From IMG/VR virus record IMGVR_UViG_3300030380_004098, positions 1 through 27,674 of that record: a DNA stretch of 27,674 nt. One strand, written 5' to 3'. This DNA is from a virus. This document shows positions 2,427 to 26,785 of this stretch, piece by piece. The number at the start of each line of letters is the position of its first letter. The first letter of the stretch is position 1. The notes below the pieces were generated by a model, which ran no database searches, was not told the DNA's origin, and saw only the letters and a program-made list of their open reading frames with translations. The position numbers were made by a program, and so were the translations under genes.

Positions 2427-3098
2427 GTGCAGTCCTACAGCGTCCACCCCATAGCGTCCGAGCAATGCAAGCCGTGGTTATTGGGGAGGCATTACGCCCG
2501 GCGGATGTGTCCTATATCCTACGCCTTCGGATTGTATGATGGTGTTCAGCTTGTGGGGGTCTGCACGTTTGGAGTTCCCGCCTCTGCCCCTTTGCGAAAT
2601 AGCATCTGCGGACAAGACGAGATGTCCTATGTTCACGAGCTAAACAGGTTGGTTGTAGACAAGCAACCCCGCAACGTATTGAGCTGGTTCGTGGCTGAAT
2701 GTCTACGCCGTCTGCCGCCCATGATTGTCGTGAGCTTTGCCGACACCGAGCAAGGTCACCACGGGTATATCTACCAAGCCACGAACTGGATATATACCGG
2801 ACTTTCTGCCAAGCGTACCGATTGGAAAGTCAAGGGCAAGGAGCACCTGCACGGCGTGACGGTGGCGGATGAATTCCGGGGTCAACAGAACCGTGGCCAG
2901 CTTATGCGGGAGAAGTACGGAGACGACTTCTATCTCGAAGACCGTCCTCGCAAGCATCGGTACGTTTACCTCATCGGATCCAAGACCCAGCGCAAGCGTT
3001 GGCGCAAGGCGTTGAAGTATGGTGAGGAGCCGTATCCCAAGGGGGACAACTCCCGATATACTGAGGCCCCGATATACTCACAGGCCCAGCTATTTTGA
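2427..3098 (+). CDS. mom: Mom-like DNA adenine modification protein
   Basis: A 223-residue protein resembling phage Mu Mom, a GNAT-fold enzyme that converts adenine in DNA to N6-(methylcarbamoyl)adenine and thereby blocks many restriction enzymes. Visible hallmarks are GRHYARRMCPISYAFGLYDG at 20-39, a VGVCTFGVPAS strand, ELNRLVVD at 71-78, SFADT at 103-107, and GYIYQATNW at 113-121, followed by a Lys/Arg-rich C-terminus likely to contact DNA. The GTG start at 2427 follows the small terminase stop after a 9-nt gap. The TGA stop overlaps the TTG start of the large terminase, so Mom is made from the packaging operon, unlike Mu, where mom is a separate late gene. I see no Com-like zinc-finger activator beside it. 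Family recall is confident; chemistry and target motif here are inferred. Confidence 0.8.
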   Translation: MQSYSVHPIASEQCKPWLLGRHYARRMCPISYAFGLYDGVQLVGVCTFGVPASAPLRNSICGQDEMSYVHELNRLVVDKQPRNVLSWFVAECLRRLPPMIVVSFADTEQGHHGYIYQATNWIYTGLSAKRTDWKVKGKEHLHGVTVADEFRGQQNRGQLMREKYGDDFYLEDRPRKHRYVYLIGSKTQRKRWRKALKYGEEPYPKGDNSRYTEAPIYSQAQLF

Positions 3099-4231
3099 GG
3101 CAGCCCGCCACCTATTACCACGTAAAGGGGTGCGGCTCGCGAGTGCAAGTACACCAGGGCGGCACGCGATCGGGCAAGACATACTCCATCCTCCAGTGCA
3201 TCGTCGAGCTCTGCCACGCCAATCATAACGCAGGGGCGGTCATCACCATAGCCCGGAAGACATTCCCCGCGCTGAGGGCTACGGCCATGAGGGACTTCTT
3301 CGAGATTCTCGAGAGGGAGGACGCGTACGACGTCACCCTTCACAACAAGTCCGAGGCGACGTATGTCCTGTGGGGGAACCTCGTGGAGTTCATCAGCGTG
3401 GACCAACCCCAAAAAGTGAGAGGCCGGCGCCGCTCGACGCTCTACGTAAATGAGGCGAACGAGCTGAGCTTGGAGGACTGGAGGCAGCTCATGTTGAGGA
3501 CCACCGACCGAGCGATTATCGACTTTAACCCATCGGATGAATACCACTGGATCTACGAGGAGGTCATCCCCCGGGAGGACTGCTCATTCTTCCGCACCAC
3601 CTACAAGGACAACCCCTTCCTCGACAAGGCCACCATCGCGGAGATTGAGCGCCTCAAGGATGCAGACCCGAACTACTGGCGAATCTACGGCCTCGGAGAG
3701 CGGGGCGTGAACCAAGCCGCCGTCTTCACTTGGGAAGTAGGGGAGATAGCCGGAAAGCGCATCGGGACCGGCCTCGACTTCGGATTCACCAACGACCCCA
3801 CCGCGGTGATTGATGTCTACCAGGACGGTCATACCCTCATCCTCCACGAGCGGCTGTACTCCACCGGGCTCACGAATCCCGACATCGCCGAGGAGCTGGA
3901 GAAGCTCGACTGCCAGACCATCATCGCCGACAGCGCCGAGCCCAAGTCCATCGAGGAGCTGTTCCGGCTGGGGCACAACGTGAAGCCCGCGCGCAAGGGA
4001 CCGGATTCCGTACGGCAGGGAATCGACATCATGAGACGCCACAAGCTGCTGGTGACTGCGGAGAGCACCAACCTACAGAAGGAACTCAGGGCGTACCGAT
4101 GGGAGCAGGACAAGAACGGGCGCAACCTCAACCGGCCCGTGGACAAGGACAACCACGGCATCGACGCGGTGCGTTACGTCTGCCTCAATCTGCTCACCAC
4201 CCACCGCCGCGGGGTGTACCATTTGGCGTGA
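3095..4231 (+). CDS. terL: Terminase large subunit
   Basis: A 378-residue packaging motor. The ATPase half has Walker A GGTRSGKT at 22-29 and Walker B TLYVNEAN at 115-122. The nuclease half has the expected acidic residues in GLDFGFTNDP at 226-235 (Asp228), IIADSAEPKS (Asp279) and DNHGIDAVRY (Asp357). These give the RNase-H-like headful or site-specific nuclease that cuts concatemeric DNA. At 378 residues it is compact for the family. No ATG precedes the Walker A motif closely enough; the TTG at 3095 overlaps the Mom stop (TTGA) and is taken as the start. Confidence 0.93.
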   Translation: MRQPATYYHVKGCGSRVQVHQGGTRSGKTYSILQCIVELCHANHNAGAVITIARKTFPALRATAMRDFFEILEREDAYDVTLHNKSEATYVLWGNLVEFISVDQPQKVRGRRRSTLYVNEANELSLEDWRQLMLRTTDRAIIDFNPSDEYHWIYEEVIPREDCSFFRTTYKDNPFLDKATIAEIERLKDADPNYWRIYGLGERGVNQAAVFTWEVGEIAGKRIGTGLDFGFTNDPTAVIDVYQDGHTLILHERLYSTGLTNPDIAEELEKLDCQTIIADSAEPKSIEELFRLGHNVKPARKGPDSVRQGIDIMRRHKLLVTAESTNLQKELRAYRWEQDKNGRNLNRPVDKDNHGIDAVRYVCLNLLTTHRRGVYHLA

Positions 4232-4556: not shown

Positions 4557-4578
4557 AGGCCCTCCGGGGCCTTTTTTT
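4557..4578 (+). terminator. Rho-independent terminator
   Basis: A perfect 6-bp stem AGGCCC / GGGCCT with loop TCCG (4557-4572), followed by six further T. It closes the small cassette 4243-4551 and would also insulate the tail operon from terminase transcription. Confidence 0.85.
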
Positions 4579-4607
4579 ATGGGCCAACCTTTCGTCTATT
4601 TACAGAC

Positions 4608-5318
4608 GTGAAGAAGACCATCACAATCCCCGAGGACCTGTACGACGTCACCATCGACCAATACAGGCGCGTCCAAGCCATCCCCGAAGGTGATGAGATG
4701 CGGCAGGTGGTGGAGACGATCTCCATCATGTGCCGCCTCACCACAGAGGAAATCATGGGCATGGAGAAGAAGGACATCCTTCACATCGGGAGCGTGCTGG
4801 GTGGCATCATCGACAAGTATGACGAGGAGTATCCCTTGGAGCGCATCGTGGAGCTGGACCAACGCTACGGATTCCATCCCAACCTCTCCCGCATCACGTT
4901 GGCCGAGTTCGCCGACATTGAGACCCTCTGCAAGGATTCCCTCGACAAGCACCTCCCCCAGGTCATGGGCATCCTATATCGGCCCATCGTGGAGGAACAC
5001 GGGGAGTTCTACCGAATCGAAGACTACGACGGGGAGGACCGCTCGGAATACTTCAAGGAGATGAAGATGGCCCACGCGCTGGGTGCCGCCGCTTTTTTTT
5101 TGCGTACCGGAAAGGCATTAGCCATCGCTTTGGACAGCTTTTCACAGGCGGTGAAGGATCCAAGCTATCCGAGAAATACGGATGGTTCGCCACGTTTGTA
5201 CATCTCGCAGGGGAGGACATTACTAAACTACCGGCGATCGAAAGGACTCACCTCGAAACGGCCTTGGCATGGCTCGCCTACGAACAAGACCGCGCCCTCC
5301 TCGAAAAGCAAAAAATGA
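4608..5318 (+). CDS. Tail assembly chaperone, zero-frame product (lambda G-like)
   Basis: The GTG at 4608 is the first start after the terminator; the open frame extends upstream through the terminator and is not used. The 236-residue product is acidic and helical (TITIPEDLYDVTIDQYRRVQ at the N-terminus) and includes MKMAHALGAAAFFLRTGKAL near residues 154-173, similar to a segment I associate with tail chaperones of Bacteroidota phages. A run of nine T at 5093-5101 lies in the codons for AFFL. Past it, the -1 frame is open to 5326 and encodes a better-looking C-terminal domain than the zero frame, whose tail is Ser/Pro/Arg-rich and low in complexity. In lambda the G protein is the unshifted product of an analogous gene. 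Its role would be to coat the tape measure and help polymerise the tail tube. Confidence 0.65.
   Translation: MKKTITIPEDLYDVTIDQYRRVQAIPEGDEMRQVVETISIMCRLTTEEIMGMEKKDILHIGSVLGGIIDKYDEEYPLERIVELDQRYGFHPNLSRITLAEFADIETLCKDSLDKHLPQVMGILYRPIVEEHGEFYRIEDYDGEDRSEYFKEMKMAHALGAAAFFLRTGKALAIALDSFSQAVKDPSYPRNTDGSPRLYISQGRTLLNYRRSKGLTSKRPWHGSPTNKTAPSSKSKK
5093..5101 (+). other. Candidate -1 ribosomal frameshift site (T9)
   Basis: Nine consecutive T give zero-frame codons GCT TTT TTT TTG. A -1 slip re-pairs on TTT and continues GCG TAC CGG into a 75-codon open extension. Contained T TTT TTT is a canonical slippery heptamer. A one-base sequencing error in the homopolymer is the main alternative. Confidence 0.6.
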
Positions 5319-5326
5319 ACCTATGA
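5099..5326 (+). CDS. -1 frame extension of the tail assembly chaperone (GT-like)
   Basis: After slipping at the T9 run, translation would add 75 residues to the first 164, giving a product of about 239. The extension begins FAYRKGISHRFGQLFTGGEG, then LSEKYGWFATFVHLAGEDIT, and ends with LETALAWLAYEQDRALLEKQ. It has sensible codon use, amphipathic helices and a natural C-terminus. Its TGA (5324-5326) overlaps the ATG of the next gene as ATGA, the junction style of the whole operon, whereas the zero-frame stop at 5318 does not. This strongly suggests that the -1 frame is coding and that both proteins are made, as for lambda G and GT. It is part of the gene starting at 4608, not an independent start. 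Confidence 0.65.
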   Translation, partial: FAYRKGISHRFGQLFTGGEGSKLSEKYGWFATFVHLAGEDITKLPAIERTHLETALAWLAYEQDRALLEKQKMNL

Positions 5327-5781
5327 GAACCGTCAATCAAATCCTCGATGAGCTTGAGACCATCGCCTTGGAGCACCGCTTCATCAACTCCTTCAAACAG
5401 GGGGAGCTCTCCGAGGTGGACATCCAGAAGCTCGCCGGCGACAAGTACCCCCTCTGCTACGCTGACATCTCCTCGGCCACCATCGACCGGGGCATCCTCA
5501 CCTATCAATTGGACATCATCGTCGCCGAGTTGATCCTCCCGGGACAGACCGACGCGCAGGAGCAGTATTCGGACACCCTGCGGACGTTGCTCGACATCGT
5601 GACCCAATACGCTCAGGTCCTGAGCGCCCAGAGCGACGTGGACCGTGACGTGCGGATTGAACTGCCGGTGGATTGTGAGCCATTCACGGCACGCTTTGAC
5701 AATCTGCTCACGGGGTGGGTGGGGTCCGTCTCCCTCCAGACCTCGAACAAGCTGGACCTCTGCGGGGCGGCCTTCGCATGA
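5323..5781 (+). CDS. Probable tail terminator/completion protein, 152 aa
   Basis: The ATG at 5323 overlaps the -1 frame chaperone stop (ATGA). The 152-residue protein contains YPLCYADISSATIDRGILTY followed by a strand-rich segment and an acidic helix (YSDTLRTLLDIVTQYAQVL). This pattern resembles the tail-terminator or neck proteins of Bacteroidota siphoviruses, and the position just before an HK97 gp10-like gene fits. The stop again overlaps the next start (ATGA). Family assignment is by resemblance and context, not by a diagnostic motif. Confidence 0.55.
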   Translation: MRTVNQILDELETIALEHRFINSFKQGELSEVDIQKLAGDKYPLCYADISSATIDRGILTYQLDIIVAELILPGQTDAQEQYSDTLRTLLDIVTQYAQVLSAQSDVDRDVRIELPVDCEPFTARFDNLLTGWVGSVSLQTSNKLDLCGAAFA

Positions 5782-10685: not shown

Positions 10686-10873
10686 AGAACTACTTGGACG
10701 ACATCGGCAGAGCCATCCCCCGCGTGCTTGAGGTATCCGCCGCCTACGAGCTCAGGGGGAATCCGGATTGCCTTCAGTTATATGGTTACTATGAGTGGGG
10801 TCGCCCGTGGTGGCGGAAAGTCCTGCTCGGAGTAAGCAATGGCGCAGGACTACGAAATCAACGTAAAGGTTAA
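10682..10873 (+). CDS. Small hypothetical protein, 63 aa
   Basis: Begins in an ATGA overlap with the 990-residue tail gene and ends 35 nt inside the tape-measure gene. The product (LDDIGRAIPRVLEVSAAYEL, then QLYGYYEWGRPWWRKVLLG) is aromatic and basic. The overlap style supports translation. No family is recognised; small proteins in this position are often tail-tip accessory factors. Confidence 0.5.
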   Translation: MKNYLDDIGRAIPRVLEVSAAYELRGNPDCLQLYGYYEWGRPWWRKVLLGVSNGAGLRNQRKG

Positions 10874-12704
10874 AGGACTCGGCGAGGCCGCCAATCAGTT
10901 GGCCAACTTTACCGACGAACTTAATGCCGCCCGAGAAGACGGGGCCAGCGTGTCCGGGGCTCTGGACATGGCCACCGGTGGGGCCGTGTCCGGATTTAAG
11001 AAGGCGGCCCAGGGGACCAAGGCTTTTGTCACCGGGCTGAAGCTGACCCGAGCCGCGATCATTGCCACCGGCATTGGGGCGCTTGTGGTTGGGGTCACGG
11101 CACTGGTCGGAGCCTTCACGAAGACCCGCCGCGGGGCACGAATGCTCAAGACCATCATGGCCGGACTGGGTGCGGTGGTGGAGCAACTTACCGCACGCTT
11201 CCAAGCCGTTGGCGGTTTCATTGTGGACCTGTTCAGCAAGGGCCCACAGGCCGCCGTCAAGCAGTACCGCGAAACCCTCGACGAGTTGCCCGGCTCTCTT
11301 CAGGAGGCCGTCAACAAGGCGATGGAATTGGAGCGGGCCACCCAAGCCCTGACCGACTCCCAACGGGCGCTAACCGTTCAACGTGCCAAGGATCGCGCTG
11401 AAATCAAGGAGCTCAACATGGTGGCGGAGGACACGACCCGCACCTTAGAGGAGCGCGAGGCCGCCGCACAGAAAGCCATCGACATTGAGAAAGGGCTCAT
11501 GGCGGAACGGGAACGCATCGCCGCCGAGGAATTGCGCATCGCCCAAGAGAAGGCCGCAATGAGCGACAGCTCCGATGAGGACCTGCAACGCTTGGCCGAC
11601 CTTGAGGCCAACCTCATCAACATCCGCACTGAGTCGGTAGAGCTTCAGACCACGCTTAACAACAAGCTCAACACCATCCGCAACGAAGCGGCACGCAAGG
11701 CAGAGGAAGAAGCCCAGCGCATCGCAGATGCTGCCGCCGCGAAAAAGAAGGCAGAACGAGAGGCGGCCGATGCCATCATTCAAGCCCAGCAAGAGGTGGT
11801 GGACGCTCTCGACCAGCGCGAACGGGCCAGTCTTTCCGAAATGGAACGGGAGGTCCTTGCCATCGAAGACTTCTATAACGCACAGCTCGACAAGGCCGGA
11901 GAGAACGCCGAGCTCATCGCCGAGTTGGAGGCCCGCCGAGATGCGGAGTTGGAGGCGCTCTTCGCCAAGCACGCCGATGTGTCCCTTCAGCAACGCGAAC
12001 AGCTCAACAGCGACTTGGAGGCGCGTCGCATGACCGAGCGAGAGAAGGAGATGGCAGACCTGGACGCCACCTTTATGGCCTTGATGGACGCCGCAGGAAC
12101 AAACCACGAAATGCGCCTGTCGGTCCTTGACCAATACGCCAACGAGGTCGACGCATTGAATGACAAGTACCGGCAAGAAGACTTGGCAAAGGAGCGGGCG
12201 GCAGCGTTAGCCAAGAAAGAGATTCAAGTCCAGACGGCCACGCAGACCCTCAGCATTTTGGCGAACCTCAACGAAGCCTTTAGCCGAGGGGGTACTGCTG
12301 AGAACAAGAAAGCATTCGAAAGAAACAAGGCCATCAGCATCGCTGAGACCTTGGTGTCCACCTACATGGCCGCGCAGAAGGCGTTTACCTCACAGCTCAC
12401 CGCAACGCCGGACTCTCCCATTCGTGCGGCTTTGGCTGCCGCCGCCGCAACCGCTTCCGGATTGGCACGGGTGGCCGCCATCAAGAGAACCCAGTTCAAC
12501 ACCCCTGGAGGAACAGACCCCGGCGATGGTGGCGGTGGTGGCGATCTTGGCGGTGGCACCCAATCCATTGGGGTGGACGTGGGCACCCTCGTTCCGAGAG
12601 CCGGACAACCCACACCGGAACCCGTTCGGGCATATGTAGTCTCGAACGAGATTAGCAACAAACAAGCCCTCGACAGAGAGCTGCAAATTCAGACAACGCT
12701 ATGA
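10839..12704 (+). CDS. Tail tape measure protein
   Basis: 621 residues. The N-terminal segment contains a hydrophobic membrane-spanning-like stretch at about 71-93 (RAAIIATGIGALVVGVTALV). It is followed by a long Ala/Glu/Lys/Arg-rich coiled-coil region (about 150-480) and a Gly-rich C-terminal linker. This is the standard make-up of a tape measure protein, which sets tail length and enters the host envelope with the DNA. The protein is short for the family, implying a short tail. It overlaps the following protease gene by 4 nt (ATGA). Confidence 0.85.
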   Translation: MAQDYEINVKVKGLGEAANQLANFTDELNAAREDGASVSGALDMATGGAVSGFKKAAQGTKAFVTGLKLTRAAIIATGIGALVVGVTALVGAFTKTRRGARMLKTIMAGLGAVVEQLTARFQAVGGFIVDLFSKGPQAAVKQYRETLDELPGSLQEAVNKAMELERATQALTDSQRALTVQRAKDRAEIKELNMVAEDTTRTLEEREAAAQKAIDIEKGLMAERERIAAEELRIAQEKAAMSDSSDEDLQRLADLEANLINIRTESVELQTTLNNKLNTIRNEAARKAEEEAQRIADAAAAKKKAEREAADAIIQAQQEVVDALDQRERASLSEMEREVLAIEDFYNAQLDKAGENAELIAELEARRDAELEALFAKHADVSLQQREQLNSDLEARRMTEREKEMADLDATFMALMDAAGTNHEMRLSVLDQYANEVDALNDKYRQEDLAKERAAALAKKEIQVQTATQTLSILANLNEAFSRGGTAENKKAFERNKAISIAETLVSTYMAAQKAFTSQLTATPDSPIRAALAAAAATASGLARVAAIKRTQFNTPGGTDPGDGGGGGDLGGGTQSIGVDVGTLVPRAGQPTPEPVRAYVVSNEISNKQALDRELQIQTTL

Positions 12705-13447
12705 GAACCGTGGAGCTTTTGATTGACGAGGAACAGGAGGACTTCGGCGTGGAGGCCATCTCCTTGGTCAAGTTTCCCGCCATCGAGGAGAACTTCGTGT
12801 ACTTCAACAAGGAGCAGAAATTGACCCTCGCCCGTATCGACGAGGACCGGCAGATGCTCATCGGCCCGGCCTTGATTCCGGACAAGATGATCCCGCGCTA
12901 CGACGAGAAGAGCCAAGAGGAGTTCGAGGTGTACTTCTCCAAGGACACCGTGGCCAAGGCTGCCGAGCTGTTCATGCAACAGAAGCGGAACGATGAGTAC
13001 ACCGTGGAGCACCGCTCCAAGGTGGACGGACTCTCCATCTTTGAGTCTTGGATCGTGGCCGACAAGGACAAAGACAAGGCCGCCGTCTACGGGTTCAATG
13101 TCCCGGTCGGTACTTGGATGGTATCGGTGAAGGTCCACAATTCCGACGTCTGGATGGACGTCAAAGACAAGAAGTATCGGGGTTTCAGCATCGAGGGCTA
13201 CTTCATCGACAAGCTCATCAAGATGGAGGACGTCACGGTGGAGACCATCGCCGAAGCCCTGCGGGAGGTGTTGGAGCCGGCTGCATACCTCGACGGCAAG
13301 CCGCTCTTCGCAACCGCACTGGAGGCCAATCTCATGGCCGAGGCTTTGGGCTGTGAGGGACACCACGAGCACACGATTAACGACCGGGTTATGTACATGC
13401 CGTGCAAGACGCACGAAGCCCTTGACCCCCTACTTGCCAACGAATAA
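12701..13447 (+). CDS. XkdF-like prohead protease
   Basis: 248 residues. ISLVKFPAIEENFVYFNKEQ near the N-terminus, GPALIPDKMIPRYD, and the central H-R-S / S-W-I-V and GTWMVSVKV..VW..V elements (about 105-155), followed by RGFSIEGYF, are the pattern of XkdF-type phage serine proteases that cleave the scaffold and capsid during head maturation. The C-terminus has an extra Cys/His segment (ALGCEGHHEHTINDRVMYMP then CKTHEAL) that recurs in phage head proteins and may bind metal. The scaffold and capsid genes follow directly, which fits the function. The ATGA overlap with the tape measure couples the tail and head modules. Confidence 0.75.
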   Translation: MRTVELLIDEEQEDFGVEAISLVKFPAIEENFVYFNKEQKLTLARIDEDRQMLIGPALIPDKMIPRYDEKSQEEFEVYFSKDTVAKAAELFMQQKRNDEYTVEHRSKVDGLSIFESWIVADKDKDKAAVYGFNVPVGTWMVSVKVHNSDVWMDVKDKKYRGFSIEGYFIDKLIKMEDVTVETIAEALREVLEPAAYLDGKPLFATALEANLMAEALGCEGHHEHTINDRVMYMPCKTHEALDPLLANE

Positions 13448-13448
13448 A

Positions 13449-13466
13449 CGCGGGTTATATCCCCGC
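13449..13466 (+). promoter_or_regulatory. Short hairpin before the scaffold start
   Basis: In the 19-nt gap between protease stop and scaffold ATG, GCGGG and CCCGC can pair around TTATATC, placing a 5-bp stem directly against the ATG at 13467. It may tune initiation of scaffold translation, or favour the second ATG at 13482. No U-run follows, so it is not a terminator. Confidence 0.3.
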
Positions 13467-14150
13467 ATGAAAACTCGACCCATGTCCGTGATTGAAAAAC
13501 TCAAGGAGGCCGTCCGTTCCGTAGTTGATGCGGAGCGCCAGGACCTCTACGCCGAAGCCCGCCTCCAAGATGGTCGGGTCGTTGCAACCGAAGCCGAGCA
13601 GTTCTCCGCCGGTGTAGACGTCCGCGTGATGAGCGAGGACGGCGAAGCCGCACCCCTCGAAGCTGGCACCTACGAACTCGCCGACGGCGGTGAGCTCAAA
13701 GTCGACGATGACTCCAAGGTTGCCATGATGGAAGAAGAGGAGAAGAAAGAGGAGGAGATGCAGGAAGAAGAAGAGAAGGACGAGATGAGCGCGGTGAAGG
13801 CCGCCCTTGTCGACAAGTTCCAAATTTCCGAGGAGGTCGCCGAGCAAATCGTGGAGGTCGTCAAGGACGCCATGAAGCCGGCCAAGGCTGAAGAGGAGAT
13901 GGAAGAGGAGAAGAAGGAAGAAGAAATGGAGGAAGAGAAGAAGGACAAGGAAGAGATGTCCGCCCTGACCGACCTCACCCACGAGATGGCCGTGGCATTG
14001 GAAGCCATCAACAAGCGCCTGGCAAAGCTGGAGGACGAACCTGCCGCCCAGCCCGAGCGCGTGCTCCCCAAGCAGGAGTTCAAGAAAGAAGACAACCCCA
14101 ACTTGACCGGCGTCAACCGCGCCCTCAACCACATCAATCAGTTCTCATGA
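13467..14150 (+). CDS. Capsid scaffolding protein
   Basis: 227 residues from the ATG at 13467; an in-frame ATG at 13482 (MSVIEKLKEAV) is an equally plausible start. The middle holds two very acidic low-complexity blocks of Glu/Lys/Met repeats (bases about 13725-13960) separated by a helical segment (VDKFQISEEVAEQIVEVVKD). The C-terminal part is a coiled-coil helix and a basic tail (LPKQEFKKEDNPN). Highly charged helical protein between protease and major capsid protein is the classic position and make-up of a scaffold. It overlaps the capsid start by 4 nt (ATGA). Confidence 0.75.
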   Translation: MKTRPMSVIEKLKEAVRSVVDAERQDLYAEARLQDGRVVATEAEQFSAGVDVRVMSEDGEAAPLEAGTYELADGGELKVDDDSKVAMMEEEEKKEEEMQEEEEKDEMSAVKAALVDKFQISEEVAEQIVEVVKDAMKPAKAEEEMEEEKKEEEMEEEKKDKEEMSALTDLTHEMAVALEAINKRLAKLEDEPAAQPERVLPKQEFKKEDNPNLTGVNRALNHINQFS

Positions 14151-15121
14151 TCCCCGCAAAGTCCAAGAAGTACGACTTCGACATTACGGTAACCGACAAC
14201 ACCTATGCCGGTGAATTGGCCCTGCCGTACGTCACCGCTGCCATCACCGGCGCGGAGACCATCACCAACAACCGCTGCCGCCTCATCGAGGGCGTCGTCC
14301 ACAAGGCGGTCATCTCCAACCTCGGTTTCACCGACGTCATCCAAGCCGCTGACTGCGCTGGCACGGACGGTGCCGACCTCTCCCTTACGGAGCAGGTTGT
14401 GACCCTCAACGACTTGATGGTCAAGGAGGTCATCTGCCGCAAGACGATGTTCCCGACGTTCATCGCCGCGCAGGGTGCCATGCGCCGGGACGGAAACATC
14501 CCGCCGGAGTTCGGTGAGTTCGTTCTCGCCTCCACCGCCGCCCAAGCCGGTAAGTCCTTGGAGTCTCTCCTGTGGGCCGGTGACGCTGGCGCCGTGTGGG
14601 GCCTCGGTCTCCTCTCCAATGACGGAGTGATTGACGAGGCTGGCATCGACGCTTCCGCCATGGCTGACTTCACCGAGGCTGTGGTTGCCGCTGCCTTCAC
14701 CGCCGCCAACATCCTTGGCGAGATGGATAAGGTCTTCGCTGCTGCCGCCGCCATCCCCGGCATCCTCCAGAAGGAGGGCTGCGGGTTCTACGTCAGCTAC
14801 GAGGCCTACGCCTTCTTCCTGCAAGCTCAGGCCGCCCAGAACACGGGCCCAGGTTACAACCAAGCCCTGACGGGTGCAACCTACCTCGGCTACCCGGTCT
14901 ACCCGACTGCCGGTATCCCGAACTCTGCCGACGTGATCGCCTTCACCTACCCCGACAACATCGTGGTCGGAACGAACGCCTACACCGGCAACGAGGCCGC
15001 CGCCTTGATTCCCGTGTATCAGTACGACGGAAGCGACAACGTGAAGGTCACGATGAACTTCGCCGTTGGTTGTAACGTTGCCGTCCCCGCTGACGGTGTT
15101 GTTGGATTCGCATTCAGCTGA
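14147..15121 (+). CDS. Major capsid protein
   Basis: 324 residues, small-residue rich, Ala/Gly/Thr dominated, with no Lys/Glu-rich segments and strongly optimised GC-rich codons, as expected for the most abundant virion protein. Conserved-looking points are ITGAETITNNRCRLIEGVVH, FPTFIAAQGAMRRDGNIPPE, and a C-terminal FAVGCNVAVPADGVVGFAFS. An HK97-type fold is presumed from the protease-scaffold-capsid order, since I cannot demonstrate the fold from sequence. It is followed after 3 nt by the probable tail-tube gene. Confidence 0.8.
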   Translation: MIPAKSKKYDFDITVTDNTYAGELALPYVTAAITGAETITNNRCRLIEGVVHKAVISNLGFTDVIQAADCAGTDGADLSLTEQVVTLNDLMVKEVICRKTMFPTFIAAQGAMRRDGNIPPEFGEFVLASTAAQAGKSLESLLWAGDAGAVWGLGLLSNDGVIDEAGIDASAMADFTEAVVAAAFTAANILGEMDKVFAAAAAIPGILQKEGCGFYVSYEAYAFFLQAQAAQNTGPGYNQALTGATYLGYPVYPTAGIPNSADVIAFTYPDNIVVGTNAYTGNEAAALIPVYQYDGSDNVKVTMNFAVGCNVAVPADGVVGFAFS

Positions 15122-15124
15122 TAC

Positions 15125-15733
15125 ATGGCTTGTACAATCACCCTCGGCCGCGCGCTGGATTGCAAGGACGCCCTCGGAGGCTTGTCGAAGATTTTCTTCG
15201 TCAACAACTTCGCGGCTGGCCTTGTGACCGCCGCGGGGACGGGTGACGGTACGGCAGGATCCGCGACCGTTTCCACCTCTTCGGGGGAGACGTTCACGAT
15301 TACGGACCTTCCGACGATGACCGTACTCCAGTACGACCTTCGCCCGGACCTGTCGTCCTTCACCATCAACGTCCAGTCGGACCCCGCCACGGGCGCCTCT
15401 CTCTTCGAGCAGACGCTCAACGTGGTCCTTCAGAAGCACCAAGAAGCAGACCCCGAGCAACTCCGCCTCATCAGCCGGAACCGCTCTCAAATCTTTGTCT
15501 TGGACAACAACGACAACCTGTTCCTGTTTGGAGCCACCCACGGGATGGACCTAAACGGAGGCACGCTCACAAGCGGTGCCGCTCGCAACGAGATGTCGGG
15601 ACACACCCTGACCTTCGCCGGTCGGGAAGCTGCTCCTTACTACTTGGTTGAGCCCACCGCCGGAATCGGAACCGCGAAGTACCCCTTCGACGGAATCGCC
15701 ACCGACTCCAACATCACCATCACTACGGGCTAA
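15125..15733 (+). CDS. Probable major tail tube protein
   Basis: 202 residues. ACTITLGRALDCKDALGGLS at the N-terminus, YDLRPDLSSFTINVQSDPAT in the middle, then LFEQTLNVVLQKH, RNRSQIFVLDNNDNLFLFGA and GMDLNGGTLTSGAARNEMSG form a pattern I recognise from an abundant structural protein of Bacteroidota siphoviruses. The strand pattern ending in a 'G-x-x-L-T-F-x-G-x-E' segment is typical of tail-tube subunits. It is expressed with the capsid gene and ends just before a strong terminator, which suits a high-copy virion protein. A capsid-decoration role is the alternative. Confidence 0.55.
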   Translation: MACTITLGRALDCKDALGGLSKIFFVNNFAAGLVTAAGTGDGTAGSATVSTSSGETFTITDLPTMTVLQYDLRPDLSSFTINVQSDPATGASLFEQTLNVVLQKHQEADPEQLRLISRNRSQIFVLDNNDNLFLFGATHGMDLNGGTLTSGAARNEMSGHTLTFAGREAAPYYLVEPTAGIGTAKYPFDGIATDSNITITTG

Positions 15734-15761
15734 GGACCGTTATTCGTTCGTGTGTTTGTGG

Positions 15762-15790
15762 AAGGGTCGCCGAGAGGCGGCCCTTTCTTA
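15762..15790 (+). terminator. Rho-independent terminator after capsid/tube genes
   Basis: A 10-bp stem AAGGGTCGCC / GGCGGCCCTT with one G-U wobble and a GAGA tetraloop (15762-15785), followed by TCTTATAT. It lies in the only sizeable gap of the head module and would give the capsid and tube genes a separate, more abundant transcript than the portal genes. Confidence 0.75.
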
Positions 15791-15802
15791 TATCCTCCAT
15801 TG

Positions 15803-16252
15803 ATGATTGTGGTCGTTAAGAACAAGGCAAGCGACGTCGAGAACACGGTTTATATCACGCCCAAGGAAAAGCGTGGAGCCGCGAACGTGGCAGAGTATGG
15901 CGCGACCATTGCGGCCTTGGGGATGGAAATCAAGAGCCTCACCACGGACAAGACGGTCATGGTCAATGCCAAATCCATCACCGTGACGGACCGCTTTACC
16001 ACCTTCGTCTTCGATGCCTCTACCACTGCCGGAGATTCCAAGGTCGACCTGTCGGGCGCAAGCTGGCCGGAGGGGTTCATCCAATACCGCGTTGTCGAGC
16101 GGGCTTCCGTCAGCGACGTCGAGGACATCAGCGCCTCGGACGTGATTTTAGAAAAGGGCTTGGGGTATCTTACCACCGAGGATGGGGCATATCAGGAGAC
16201 CACCTTCACCAGCCACGTCGACGAGACTTCAACCTTCACCTACTATGAGTAA
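15803..16252 (+). CDS. Hypothetical structural protein, 149 aa
   Basis: The ATG at 15803 is used because the open frame upstream runs through the terminator. The protein (MIVVVKNKASDVENTVYITP, then a strand-rich middle and VILEKGLGYLTTEDGAYQET) is all-beta in appearance, without signal or membrane segment. It overlaps the portal start by 8 nt. Position between tail-tube and portal genes indicates a virion or neck protein. No family is recognised with certainty. Confidence 0.6.
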   Translation: MIVVVKNKASDVENTVYITPKEKRGAANVAEYGATIAALGMEIKSLTTDKTVMVNAKSITVTDRFTTFVFDASTTAGDSKVDLSGASWPEGFIQYRVVERASVSDVEDISASDVILEKGLGYLTTEDGAYQETTFTSHVDETSTFTYYE

Positions 16253-18011
16253 ACACGAGTTCAACGTCTTTGGGCTCCCGACCCACGAGTTGCCCCTGTT
16301 CAGGGAAAAGACCGGTCGGGACTGGGTGGACTATGGCTATGACAACGCCTACGGCGACTACCTCCGGGACCTGTACCTTGGTAGCGCCATCCAGAGCGCG
16401 GTGGTCAACGGCGTCTCTGAGATGATATACGGCGAGGGGTTGGATGCCACGGACCGGGAAGAGAAGCCGGACCAATGGATGAAGACCCAGCGCCTCTTCG
16501 AGAACTCCGACGAGGACATCCTGCGCCAACTGTCCTTCGACCTGAAGTTGTACGGTCAGTGCTACGTCCAAGTAATTTGGAACCGCGTCCGGACGGAGGT
16601 GGCCGAGCTTCGCTTCCTGCCGGCCCACACGGTGCGCTCCGGAATTGCCGATGCCCAGGGGAAGGTCGAATGCTACTACGTCTCCCCGGATTGGTCCCGA
16701 ATGCGGGAGCCACGGTACGCTCCGGTCAAGTACCCCGCATGGGATACGGAGGACCGCACCGAGCCGGCTTCCGTGTACCAAATCAAGGCATACCAGCCCG
16801 GCATCTTCTACTACGGCCTGCCGGATTATGTGGGTTCTACCAACTACATCGAGCTCGACAGGGAGGTATCTACCTTCCACCTCAACAACATCAAGAACGG
16901 CCTCTTCCCGTCCATGCTTTTGTCGTTCAACAACGGCATCCCAAGCGATGAGGAGCGGCGCACCATCGAGCGCCATGTGAACGAGAAGTTCAGCGGGTCT
17001 TCCAATGCGGGGCGACTCCTGATTTCGTTCAACGACGGGAGCGATTCCGCGCCCCAGTTGACCCCGGTCAACCCGAACGACAACGACGGGATGTATGAGT
17101 TCCTGGCCACGGAATGCACCACCAAGATTTTGGCCGGTCACCGCATCACGTCGCCCCTGCTCTTTGGCATCCGAGGAGAGGGGTCCGGCTTCGGCAACAA
17201 CGCCGACGAACTTCGGGACTCGTTCAGCCTGTTTCAGAATACGGTGGTCAAGCCGTTCCAACGCACCCTGTTGGACGGCCTGCAAGCCATCTTCTCGGTG
17301 AACGGCATCGACCTGGACTTCTACTTTAAGACCCTCAAGCCTGCCGACTTCATCGACGTGGAAACGGTCAAGGCGCAAAGCACAGACGAGCAGGAGAAGG
17401 AAGGATTGGAAAAGGAGGAGTTCAGCCGCCCCCACACCCCCGACGCATCCGCCGACATCCTGATTGCCTTTGGAGAGGATGAAGACGAAGACTACGAGCT
17501 CATCGACGAGCGGGAGGTGGACTACGACCTTGAAGAGCGATTCGATGCCATGTGGACCTTCGCACGGGTTCCGTCCTCCAACCCTGCCGGAAAGAGCGAC
17601 CAAGACACCGACCTCATCAAGGTCCGGTACAAGTATGCCCCGGACATTGTGGCCGACAACACCCGGGAGTTTTGTCGGAAGATGATCCGCGCCGGCAAGG
17701 TCTACCGAAAGGAGGACATCATGGCCGCGTCCGGGCGTGCCGTGAATCCCGGATGGGGACCGCGCGGAGCGGACACCTACGACATTTGGCTCTATAAGGG
17801 GGGCGGGTCCTGTCAACACTTCTGGCAGCGCCGGACGTACCTCAAGAAGAACAACAAGCGCATCTCCGTTGGCGAGGCTCAACGCATCATCCGCGCCGCT
17901 GGACCCGATGCCGAGCGACTCCAGACCAATGACCCCAAAGTGGCGCAGCGCCCCCGCGATATGGTCAACCGTGGCTTCCTTGAACCGAAAGACTTTACCA
18001 CCCCCCGATAA
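16245..18011 (+). CDS. Portal protein with C-terminal extension
   Basis: 588 residues. The first ~370 form a portal core: YDNAYGDYLRDLYLGSAIQS, ILRQLSFDLKLYGQCYVQVI, a FHLNNIKNGLFPSMLLSFNN clip-region-like segment, and the LAGHRITSPLLFGI.. stem-helix segment typical of dodecameric portals. Residues about 370-440 are acidic and linker-like. The last ~150 residues (FCRKMIRAGKVYRKEDIMAA, then YKGGGSCQHFWQRRTYLKKN) are a distinct domain known to me from the C-termini of Bacteroidota phage head proteins, function unclear. The ATG at 16245 overlaps the upstream gene by 8 nt. The portal lies about 12 kb from the large terminase, which is unusual. Confidence 0.8.
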   Translation: MSKHEFNVFGLPTHELPLFREKTGRDWVDYGYDNAYGDYLRDLYLGSAIQSAVVNGVSEMIYGEGLDATDREEKPDQWMKTQRLFENSDEDILRQLSFDLKLYGQCYVQVIWNRVRTEVAELRFLPAHTVRSGIADAQGKVECYYVSPDWSRMREPRYAPVKYPAWDTEDRTEPASVYQIKAYQPGIFYYGLPDYVGSTNYIELDREVSTFHLNNIKNGLFPSMLLSFNNGIPSDEERRTIERHVNEKFSGSSNAGRLLISFNDGSDSAPQLTPVNPNDNDGMYEFLATECTTKILAGHRITSPLLFGIRGEGSGFGNNADELRDSFSLFQNTVVKPFQRTLLDGLQAIFSVNGIDLDFYFKTLKPADFIDVETVKAQSTDEQEKEGLEKEEFSRPHTPDASADILIAFGEDEDEDYELIDEREVDYDLEERFDAMWTFARVPSSNPAGKSDQDTDLIKVRYKYAPDIVADNTREFCRKMIRAGKVYRKEDIMAASGRAVNPGWGPRGADTYDIWLYKGGGSCQHFWQRRTYLKKNNKRISVGEAQRIIRAAGPDAERLQTNDPKVAQRPRDMVNRGFLEPKDFTTPR

Positions 18012-24596: not shown

Positions 24597-25086
24597 GACT
24601 CAGGGACTACTTCAAGGAGATAGTCGAAATTTGACCCCTCAAAATGCGTGGAGCGAGGGCACAAACATTCGGACGGCGCTCCGCCTCCAGCCTCATGCGG
24701 TCCGCGCGTGGTTTTTGGCAGAGCTTGGGAAGCTGATCAAATTCGTCGATGCAACCAAGACCATTCAAGACGACGAAGAGATGAAGGAAACCATCCGCGC
24801 CCTCATCGAGGAGTTCCCGGCTTTTAAGCTGGAGGAGTTCGCCTTGGTCTTCGAAGGCATCAAGCGCGACAAGTTCGGGCCCATGTACGGGCGGCTCAAG
24901 CTGGGGGAGATTATGGGGTGTTGCAGGAAGTGGGAAGAGACCCGAGCCGAGCGGATTTTGGAACGGCAGCACCGTCCGGAATACGACCCCCACACCCGGG
25001 GCTCCGTTGGAGAACCCAAACGAAAGGCTATATTGTTGACCGAGGAGGACCTGTTGGCCCTCGGACAAATCAAGCCCCGTGATTGA
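24565..25086 (+). CDS. Probable helicase loader (DUF6633-like)
   Basis: 173 residues from the ATG at 24565; the TTG at 24631 (NLTPQNAWSEG) is an alternative start that avoids overlap with the initiator and matches where similar proteins begin. The core is all helical: RAWFLAELGKLIKFVDATKT, then EEFPAFKLEEFALVFEGIKR and KFGPMYGRLKLGEIMGCCRK, a pattern I associate with DUF6633 proteins found right after initiators in Bacteroidota phages. Place and order (O-P) suggest it brings the host replicative helicase to the origin. No ATPase motif is present, so it is not an AAA+ DnaC-type loader. Its stop overlaps the methyltransferase start. Confidence 0.55.
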   Translation: MASRTSSLTVRTQGLLQGDSRNLTPQNAWSEGTNIRTALRLQPHAVRAWFLAELGKLIKFVDATKTIQDDEEMKETIRALIEEFPAFKLEEFALVFEGIKRDKFGPMYGRLKLGEIMGCCRKWEETRAERILERQHRPEYDPHTRGSVGEPKRKAILLTEEDLLALGQIKPRD

Positions 25087-25726
25087 CCTGCGCCACGCCG
25101 ACTGCATGGACTACCTCGCCACCTGCGAGGACAATGCCTTTGAACTTGCCATCGTAGACCCGCCATATGGGATAGGTGAATCTGGAGAAACAAACCACAC
25201 ACGAGGCAAACTCGCCAAGCCCAAAAAATACAAGGCGTTCGCCGGAGGCGACAAAAGCGCACCGAGCGAGCAATATTTTGCAGAGCTTGAGAGAGTAAGT
25301 AAAAACCAGATTTTATGGGGCGCCAATCACTACCGAGCGCGGGAAAGTAGCGCGTGGATTGTGTGGGACAAGCTGAACGCAGGAACGCACTTCGCAGACG
25401 CAGAACTGGCTTACACCAGCTTCAAAAAAGCCGTGAGAGTGTTTCGATTTAGGTGGAATGGAATGCTACAGGGGGACATGAAAAACAAAGAGGAGCGTAT
25501 CCACCCAACCCAAAAACCCGTCAAGCTCTACGAATGGCTTCTCATGAATTATGCCAAAGAGGGCGACCGCATTCTCGATACGCATCTTGGGAGTGGCTCC
25601 ATTGCCATCGCTTGTCACAACCTCGGCTTCGACCTTGTGGGTTGTGAGCTGGACGAAGACTATTTAAACGCGGCTCGCAAGCGCCTCCAGCAACACCAAA
25701 CGCAACTCCGAATCCCTGTATCATGA
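25079..25726 (+). CDS. DNA (N6-adenine/N4-cytosine) methyltransferase
   Basis: 215 residues, GTG start overlapping the upstream stop. Motif IV DPPYGIG at 27-33, WIVWDK, HPTQKPVKLYEWL, and motif I LGSGS at 170-174 followed by GCELDEDYL give a beta-class amino-methyltransferase without extra domains. It is related to, but clearly different from, the methyltransferase half of the gene at 222 (shared HPTQKPVKL and LGSGS). No cognate endonuclease is present, so it is an orphan enzyme that likely protects replicating phage DNA. Its location in the early operon fits immediate modification of new DNA. Confidence 0.88.
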   Translation: MIDLRHADCMDYLATCEDNAFELAIVDPPYGIGESGETNHTRGKLAKPKKYKAFAGGDKSAPSEQYFAELERVSKNQILWGANHYRARESSAWIVWDKLNAGTHFADAELAYTSFKKAVRVFRFRWNGMLQGDMKNKEERIHPTQKPVKLYEWLLMNYAKEGDRILDTHLGSGSIAIACHNLGFDLVGCELDEDYLNAARKRLQQHQTQLRIPVS

Positions 25727-25857: not shown

Positions 25858-26252
25858 ATCGGAAGAAGCTCATCGCCAAGCTCGACCGGGTGTTCTCTCA
25901 GTGGGTCCGGGCTAAGGATGCCGACCACCGCGGGTATGTGGAATGCTACACCTGCGGAGCAGTCAACCATTGGAAGCGCATGGACGCCGGCCACTTCCAA
26001 TCGCGGGGCAAGTTCTCGACTCGGTGGATGTGCGACCCCGAACAGGGGTTGGTCAATGTGGCCCCCCAGTGTAAGAGGTGCAACGGATTCCGGTCCGGTG
26101 AGCAATTCAAGTTCGCCCGCCGGTTGGACGCGGAGTATGGGGAGGGCACCGCGGAGAAGATTGAGCAGATGTCTAACCAAACGAGGAAGTACAGCTCGGA
26201 AGAGCTTGAGGCGCTGATTGAAGTCTACAACCGTCGAGTCCGCAAGCTGTGA
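25854..26252 (+). CDS. ninG: NinG/Rap-like recombination protein
   Basis: 132 residues from the GTG at 25854. KLIAKLDRVFSQWVRAKDAD, GYVECYTCG with Cys31/Cys34, HWKRMDAGHFQSRG (DAGHF at 44-48), and a second Cys pair in QCKRCNGF (Cys73/Cys76) are the hallmarks of lambda NinG (Rap), a structure-specific endonuclease that resolves D-loops and Holliday junctions. The zinc pair and HNH-like DAGHF are intact, so the protein is probably active. Its early-operon place mirrors lambda. Confidence 0.85.
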   Translation: MNRKKLIAKLDRVFSQWVRAKDADHRGYVECYTCGAVNHWKRMDAGHFQSRGKFSTRWMCDPEQGLVNVAPQCKRCNGFRSGEQFKFARRLDAEYGEGTAEKIEQMSNQTRKYSSEELEALIEVYNRRVRKL

Positions 26253-26785
26253 CCCTCTCCCGCTACCTCGAAAAGAACTACGCCGACCTTGAGCAGGCCG
26301 CGTACCGCATCGCCGGAAGGGATGGCCCCGACCTGCTTCACGAGGTAATCCTTCAACTCTACCAAACCAAGGAGGAAACCATCGCCGGGCTCTTGGACAG
26401 GGGGCAGATGAAGTACTGGGTCCTTCGGGTGATGGTCAACAACTACAACTCCAAGACTTCCCGGTACCACTACAAATGGCGGAAGGACATCGAGCGCCGC
26501 CGCAAGTTCTCGCGGCACATCGTGGAGTGGTGGGACGGGGACGGGGTAGCGGCCCACCGGGACGAACTCCTGACCCACATCGAGCAACAGCTCGCCGACC
26601 TCCCTTGGTTCGATGCGGAAGTCTTTGCCATATACTTTGAAGAGGGGCACACCCTGGACTCCTTCGCGGAGGCCACGGGCATCTCTCGCCACACCCTATA
26701 TACCACCATCAGACGTGTCCGAAAACGAATCCAAGGGACTGGGCGACAAGATCGCCAAGCTGACCAAAGCGACGGGAATCAATAA
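26249..26785 (+). CDS. Sigma-70-like protein, candidate late regulator
   Basis: 178 residues, GTG start in a GTGA overlap. The N-terminal half (RYLEKNYADLEQAAYRIAGR then PDLLHEVILQLYQ) matches sigma-70 region 2-type helices, the middle is basic (HYKWRKDIERRRKFSRH), and residues about 115-160 (FDAEVFAIYFEEGHTLDSFA, then EATGISRHTLYTTIRRVRKR) are a region 4-like helix-turn-helix. It may bind core RNA polymerase or a late promoter. It lies downstream of ninG, where lambda keeps its late antiterminator Q. The gene overlaps the next by 71 nt. Confidence 0.65.
   Translation: MTLSRYLEKNYADLEQAAYRIAGRDGPDLLHEVILQLYQTKEETIAGLLDRGQMKYWVLRVMVNNYNSKTSRYHYKWRKDIERRRKFSRHIVEWWDGDGVAAHRDELLTHIEQQLADLPWFDAEVFAIYFEEGHTLDSFAEATGISRHTLYTTIRRVRKRIQGTGRQDRQADQSDGNQ

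Follow-up and report, generated by a model that had tools for sequence, protein, structure and literature searches.

The window analyzed here, a 27,674-nt stretch of one strand from an IMG/VR virus record, contains a gene that carries two domains in different reading frames, which meet at an uninterrupted run of nine T. Both a run of at least nine T and the switch to the -1 frame are conserved among the relatives of this gene, and purifying selection acts on both domains. We favor, with moderate confidence and judging from comparison of the sequences, slippage of RNA polymerase as the mechanism of the switch. In a broader reading, to which we give an even chance, a large clade of tailed phages dominated by uncultured members would set the ratio of its tail chaperone forms by RNA polymerase slippage at T9 and not by ribosomal frameshifting, with a selected zero-frame tail and with the short and long forms coded over the same bases.

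Organization of the gene and conservation of the T run

The gene lies downstream of the large terminase subunit gene (positions 3095–4231; PF04466 and PF17288); both are on the plus strand, as are the next gene and the tape measure gene. Its N-terminal, G-like domain (4608–5099; 164 aa) is read in the zero frame from a GTG start and matches phrog_32199 with an E-value of 7e-9. It is further supported by relatives found with tblastn, by a pN/pS of 0.145 and by an AlphaFold2 model with a pLDDT of 93. The T9 run (5093–5101), read in the zero frame as GCT TTT TTT TTG, includes both T_TTT_TTT and T_TTT_TTG. The unshifted product, which starts at GTG 4608, has Ala-Phe-Phe at the run, goes on with TTG CGT and ends at the TGA of 5316–5318; it is 236 aa long, 71 aa of which form a zero-frame tail (5103–5318). 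The C-terminal, T-like domain (5102–5326; 74 aa) is read in the -1 frame, from GCG at 5102 to the TGA of 5324–5326. It is supported by its relatives and by a match to phrog_38404 (E-value 4e-4), and contains the motif EKYGWF in the window and EKWGWY in relatives. The stop codon of the -1 frame shares bases with the ATG (5323–5325) of the next gene (5323–5781; 152 aa) in an ATGA overlap. The preliminary description of this DNA had placed the run, both open frames and the overlap correctly, and likewise the distance of about 5.5 kb to the tape measure gene, which starts at 10839.

A similar arrangement occurs in two isolated Nonlabens phages, P12024S (gp38/gp39) and P12024L (gp40/gp41), which have a T9 run, a C-terminal domain encoded in the -1 frame and a position directly after the large terminase gene. 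They differ in sequence (about 30% identity), in the codon phase of the run and in a shorter zero-frame tail. In both phages the pair is annotated as two hypothetical proteins; in genomes of this kind, the C-terminal part is either annotated as an independent hypothetical protein (Nonlabens gp39, PHROG 38404) or missed, which is of use as a rule for annotation. The annotation of this part as an ORF of its own, with an ATG overlapping the zero-frame stop, agrees with a translational restart that would make the C-terminal domain alone, without any fusion. We consider this highly improbable: between the run and 5326, the -1 frame of the window holds no listed ORF of at least 60 aa with an ATG, GTG or TTG start, and the T run is kept although a restart would not require one.

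That both frames are open was rejected as evidence for a frameshift, since openness is expected by chance in about 60% of cases: upon synonymous resampling of the -1 frame, the zero frame stays open in about 0.59–0.65 of the draws. What lies above chance is that relatives conserve both the run of at least nine T and the -1 placement of the second domain, not the openness of the zero frame. These relatives were collected from IMG/VR contigs and the isolated Nonlabens phages. Viral contigs were first scanned with the N-terminal part, which kept 76 of 76 relatives (76–100% identity). Further scans kept 80 of 95 (first domain) and 80 of 190 and 80 of 191 (second domain), and the last, made with peptide patterns of the N-terminal domain that lie outside the site, kept 80 of at least 571 relatives. 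Together, the scans gave 291 sequences. They contain 202 distinct sites, a count that omits identical repeats and eight of 210 distinct N-domain sites with fewer than 60 bases after the domain. Scans of bacterial genomes returned 36 and 83 pattern stretches with no relative among them, and a capsid protein search of phage records gave no match.

At all 202 sites the T run is uninterrupted (T9 in 176, T10 in 25 and T12 in one) and the C-terminal domain lies in the -1 frame. Neither T8 nor T11 occurs among them, nor does an in-frame fusion or another slip motif or heptamer. The sites form 51 clusters at 60% identity, 28 at 50% and five at 40%. Across the 51 clusters the codon phase of the run varies (34 clusters have it at position 2, 14 at position 3 and two at position 1, and one is mixed), and the kept feature is thus the length of the run and not one phased heptamer. 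In the window group, every fully covered site reads GC-T9-GCG (74 relatives and the window, among them L015, whose sequence stops within the run; the partial query matches L076 and L077 were left out). Bases 5091–5106 are invariant in 64 distinct sequences of this group, while wobble bases of several preceding codons vary; this set leaves out two of 67 sequences, L008 and L012, with a run-on or a stop in the -1 frame.

A chance origin of the run was rejected on three grounds. The window holds a single T9 on both strands, with 0.16 expected; elsewhere in 143 loci of relatives there are 14 sense-strand T9 runs, and none longer, in 1.2 Mb (a 145-locus set from which L155, with T8 at the contig start, and L194, with no site, were set aside); and the run is conserved at every distinct site. 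Homopolymers are error-prone, and L155, a locus without the N-terminal domain, shows the sole shorter run seen, a T8 that lies only two bases into its contig. A sequencing or assembly error that hides a gene with a single frame is nevertheless refuted, and we give it virtually no credence: the 202 sites come from many samples and agree, the genomes of the isolates P12024S and P12024L carry T9, and substitutions obey the zero frame up to the run and the -1 frame beyond it.

Indels are the way in which long homopolymers mutate, and contingency loci have this same appearance. The run could accordingly be phase-variable, with replication slippage at T9 toggling the extension between virions, but we find this very improbable. 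The 202 sites include neither an in-frame variant nor a run of eight or eleven T, and the T10 of L102 reflects a substitution, with a T where the window group has its G right after the run, and not an insertion. Given that T9 should often gain or lose bases and so fuse the domains in frame, we infer from the lack of a fused variant at the 202 sites that the short product is likely needed too. Four BFVD viral protein models of 234–260 aa match both domains in one chain (A0A516L5A8 and A0A516L611, more weakly A0A6J5SVK3 and A0A6J7XA66); in-frame relatives may therefore exist, although these models may also reflect homopolymer errors. The preliminary description had named a comparison of homologues as one check on its reading, and both the run and the frame switch are conserved at all 202 sites. 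Of the findings that in its view would speak against it, a different T count was not seen in the window group, next to the T10 of L102 and the T8 of L155 described above, and in-frame homologues were absent from the 202 sites, with some of the BFVD proteins as candidates.

Selection on the two reading frames

We calculated pN/pS over 50 sequences. The N-terminal domain in the zero frame has a value of 0.145. The bases after the run give 0.132 when read in the -1 frame, close to the 0.151 of the next gene, and 1.6 when read in the zero frame. Selection thus moves to the -1 frame at the T run.

Just past the run, the -1 frame shows reduced synonymous variation: pS is 0.13–0.30 over 5102–5251, compared to about 0.50 before the run and 0.42–0.70 over 5252–5311. 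Seven other clusters were tested, and six have a clear or mild synonymous dip over the first 12–24 codons; in the cluster of L197, synonymous variation is low across the whole C-terminal domain. The dip suggests that the zero-frame tail may matter, as overlapping coding sequence, or that a nucleic-acid element is located there. Folded as a whole, the RNA of 5102–5251 has a z-score of -0.34. The zero-frame tail is between 17 and 84 aa long in relatives, and in L019, L030 and L032 the zero frame ends 14 codons early, at residue 222 instead of 236, just beyond the constrained part. By eye, the Arg codon shortly downstream of the run frequently has G as its third base, which gives Leu-Gly in the zero frame (L079, 4437–4522; L106, 6479–6600; and other relatives); this could belong to the zero-frame constraint.

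Slippage of the polymerase or of the ribosome

In the mechanism that we favor, the gene would give two proteins that share their N-terminal domain, the first being the templated zero-frame product and the second carrying the 74-residue C-terminal domain read in the -1 frame, with the switch located at the uninterrupted T run. The nascent RNA would realign on the A9 template, by which a share of the transcripts would gain one U (U10). Such a transcript would put the -1 frame in line, leaving the rest to ordinary translation, and one inserted U corresponds exactly to the -1 frame. Transcripts minus one U would give a product ending a few codons on. The resulting protein pair (G-like and GT-like) would probably be a tail assembly chaperone.

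An A/T run of about nine or more in any codon phase is the expectation for transcriptional slippage, and this is what the sites have. The E. coli polymerase is reported to slip preferentially on poly(T), with insertions exceeding deletions, and to need at least seven T (PMC6260861). Homopolymers of eight or more are described as a frequent form of programmed slippage site (PMC3711429). Selection against A/T runs is reported to be evident from nine in many bacteria (PMC1088944).

The main alternative is a ribosomal -1 frameshift in the style of lambda or P2, with the tRNAs on T_TTT_TTT or T_TTT_TTG slipping one base back and the run length only boosting the efficiency. We regard this as possible but rather unlikely. 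Any run of at least nine T contains a zero-phase T_TTT_TTN heptamer, as do all 202 sites, and the run of the window contains the exact T_TTT_TTG of P2 gpE, with no difference in codon phase; run length may also be maintained because it strengthens the slipping of the ribosome. A ribosomal -1 site, however, requires only X_XXY_YYZ, which amounts to T6 in one codon phase, and no homologue among the 202 sites has a different heptamer. In P2 gpE and seven relatives the site is TTTTTTG, with a longest T run of six, and the ninth sequence, of Mannheimia phage PHL101, is without the site (nine of 250 matching records were examined). Ribosomal shifts in G/GT genes are reported as widespread in tailed phages (PMC5009743).

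Silent changes carry this comparison further. We considered any T-to-C change that is silent in the frames reading that T and that retains a T_TTT_TTN heptamer. Such a change is open to 196 of the 202 loci and, judged by cluster representatives, to 48 of the 51 clusters, and it is seen in none. From the codon usage of each cluster, this absence has a crude log10 p of -8.2, to be read with the clusters being not fully independent (five at 40% identity) and the AT-rich ones having little power. The test was also made in a version with 27 clusters. In position-2 clusters, the free base change turns T_TTT_TTT into T_TTT_TTC. This heptamer belongs to the H_HH.U_UU.Y motifs, which are counted among the most efficient ones in E. 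coli (PMC4066793). The test says less about the 14 position-3 clusters, where the first T can change freely only when the slip uses the second heptamer. Runs of at least nine T in every phase and cluster, the lack of silent interruptions that would spare the heptamer and the T6 of the P2 relatives (8/9) together favor slippage of the polymerase over that of the ribosome, although both may act together.

The RNA next to the run does not point to a stimulator. An RNA pseudoknot or hairpin directly downstream is unsupported by the fold z-scores: the 60 bases after the run have a mean of -0.32 (32 representatives) vs -0.03 in 187 control windows. Upstream, the best match to AGGAGG as an SD stimulator is two to four of six bases in the 32 representatives. 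A missing stimulator does not separate the two mechanisms, because P2 has none; its shift is described as translational, at TTTTTTG and without a downstream hairpin (PMC3091744).

The G/GT switch of the lambda type, described as ribosomal, is the textbook example of a frameshift in phages. The preliminary description had proposed a programmed -1 frameshift of this type. A conserved and selected -1 switch in a tail-module gene, with an N-terminal and an extended product, agrees with it (202 of 202 sites, pN/pS), but a ribosomal, lambda-like slip is not established and the evidence fits transcriptional slippage better. If polymerase slippage is indeed at work, it would be the transcribing polymerase, and not the ribosome, that determines the ratio between the two forms. 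This would parallel dnaX, for which bacteria are reported to reach the same end through either transcription or translation (PMC1088944). Like our gene, Shigella mxiE and Thermus dnaX have a nine-base A/T run, and in mxiE a nucleotide inserted at a U run is described as joining two ORFs into a longer product (PMC1088944). Unlike our gene, these are bacterial genes outside phage tails, and their slippage was shown experimentally, whereas here it is inferred. In the mainly open-access literature searched, we found no report of this gene family or of a tail assembly chaperone that uses transcriptional slippage.

Relation to tail assembly chaperones

The gene probably acts like a tail assembly chaperone (G/GT), as suggested by its tail-module neighborhood and its profile links; we do not assign it to an established family. 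As in the G/GT and E/E+E' pairs, a predicted N-terminal product and a shifted-frame extension meet at a conserved slippery site in all 202 cases. Lambda G/GT likewise has two products with a common N-terminus, the longer one in the -1 frame, but its site is GGGAAAG, the longest T run nearby is four, and the gene lies between the major tail protein V and the tape measure H. P2 E/E+E' (PF10109, Phage_TAC_7) is similar in having a short N-terminal protein with a -1 extension at a T run (TTTTTTG in P2). It differs in its T6 and its position beside the tape measure gene, compared to T9–T12 and 5.5 kb here, and its sequence similarity to our gene family is marginal.

The profile links, on which an identity as tail assembly chaperone rests, are weak. 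All 37 family members match phrog_32199 in the N-terminal part. PHROG 166, annotated as a tail protein, matches this part in 12 of 37 members (best E-value 7.3e-5) and also matches P2 gpE (E-value 4e-7). The Pfam family with the most members matched is PF10109 (3 of 37; best E-value 0.0093, below the curated cut-off), the chaperone family of P2 E and Mu gp41. PF06894 (Phage_TAC_2) is not among the matches listed, and a profile comparison against Mu gp41 and P2 gpE as single sequences gave no significant match. A sequence search of solved structures found nothing below an E-value of 0.34. With the predicted N-terminal domain, the best Foldseek hit in the PDB has an E-value of 2.1, VIA-align gave a Z of at most 3.2 (a KorA chain; rmsd 9.5, 57 aligned), and BFVD entries named tail assembly chaperone reached E-values of 0.08 and 0.14 only. 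The second domain is predicted as mostly helical with a pLDDT of 75.5.

Tail assembly chaperones bind the tape measure and tail tube proteins and are absent from the virion, and their genes usually, but not essentially, sit directly upstream of the tape measure gene. Here the tape measure gene (10839–12704; phrog_3336 and other PHROG tape measure matches) lies 5.5 kb downstream in the window and about 6 kb away in the three relatives checked (L125, L161 and L166).

The order of the modules over 10839–18011 is unusual, with the tape measure followed by a protease (12701–13447), a capsid-like protein (14147–15121), a tube-like protein (15125–15733) and the portal (16182–18011). The tube-like assignment is our own reading of a protein that matches phrog_19091, of unknown function. 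A terminator-like hairpin followed by T7 (4557–4578), just 5' of GTG 4608, and a weak promoter-like match at 4599–4627 suggest that the tail operon may begin there; both score no better than shuffled sequences. Judged by eye, an ORF at 26249–26785 resembles a sigma-70-type factor, and Nonlabens phage P12024S encodes a Sigma-70 region 2 gene as gp33. Two further ORFs (222–1355 and 25079–25726) contain, also by eye, DPPYG motifs like those of DNA methyltransferases.
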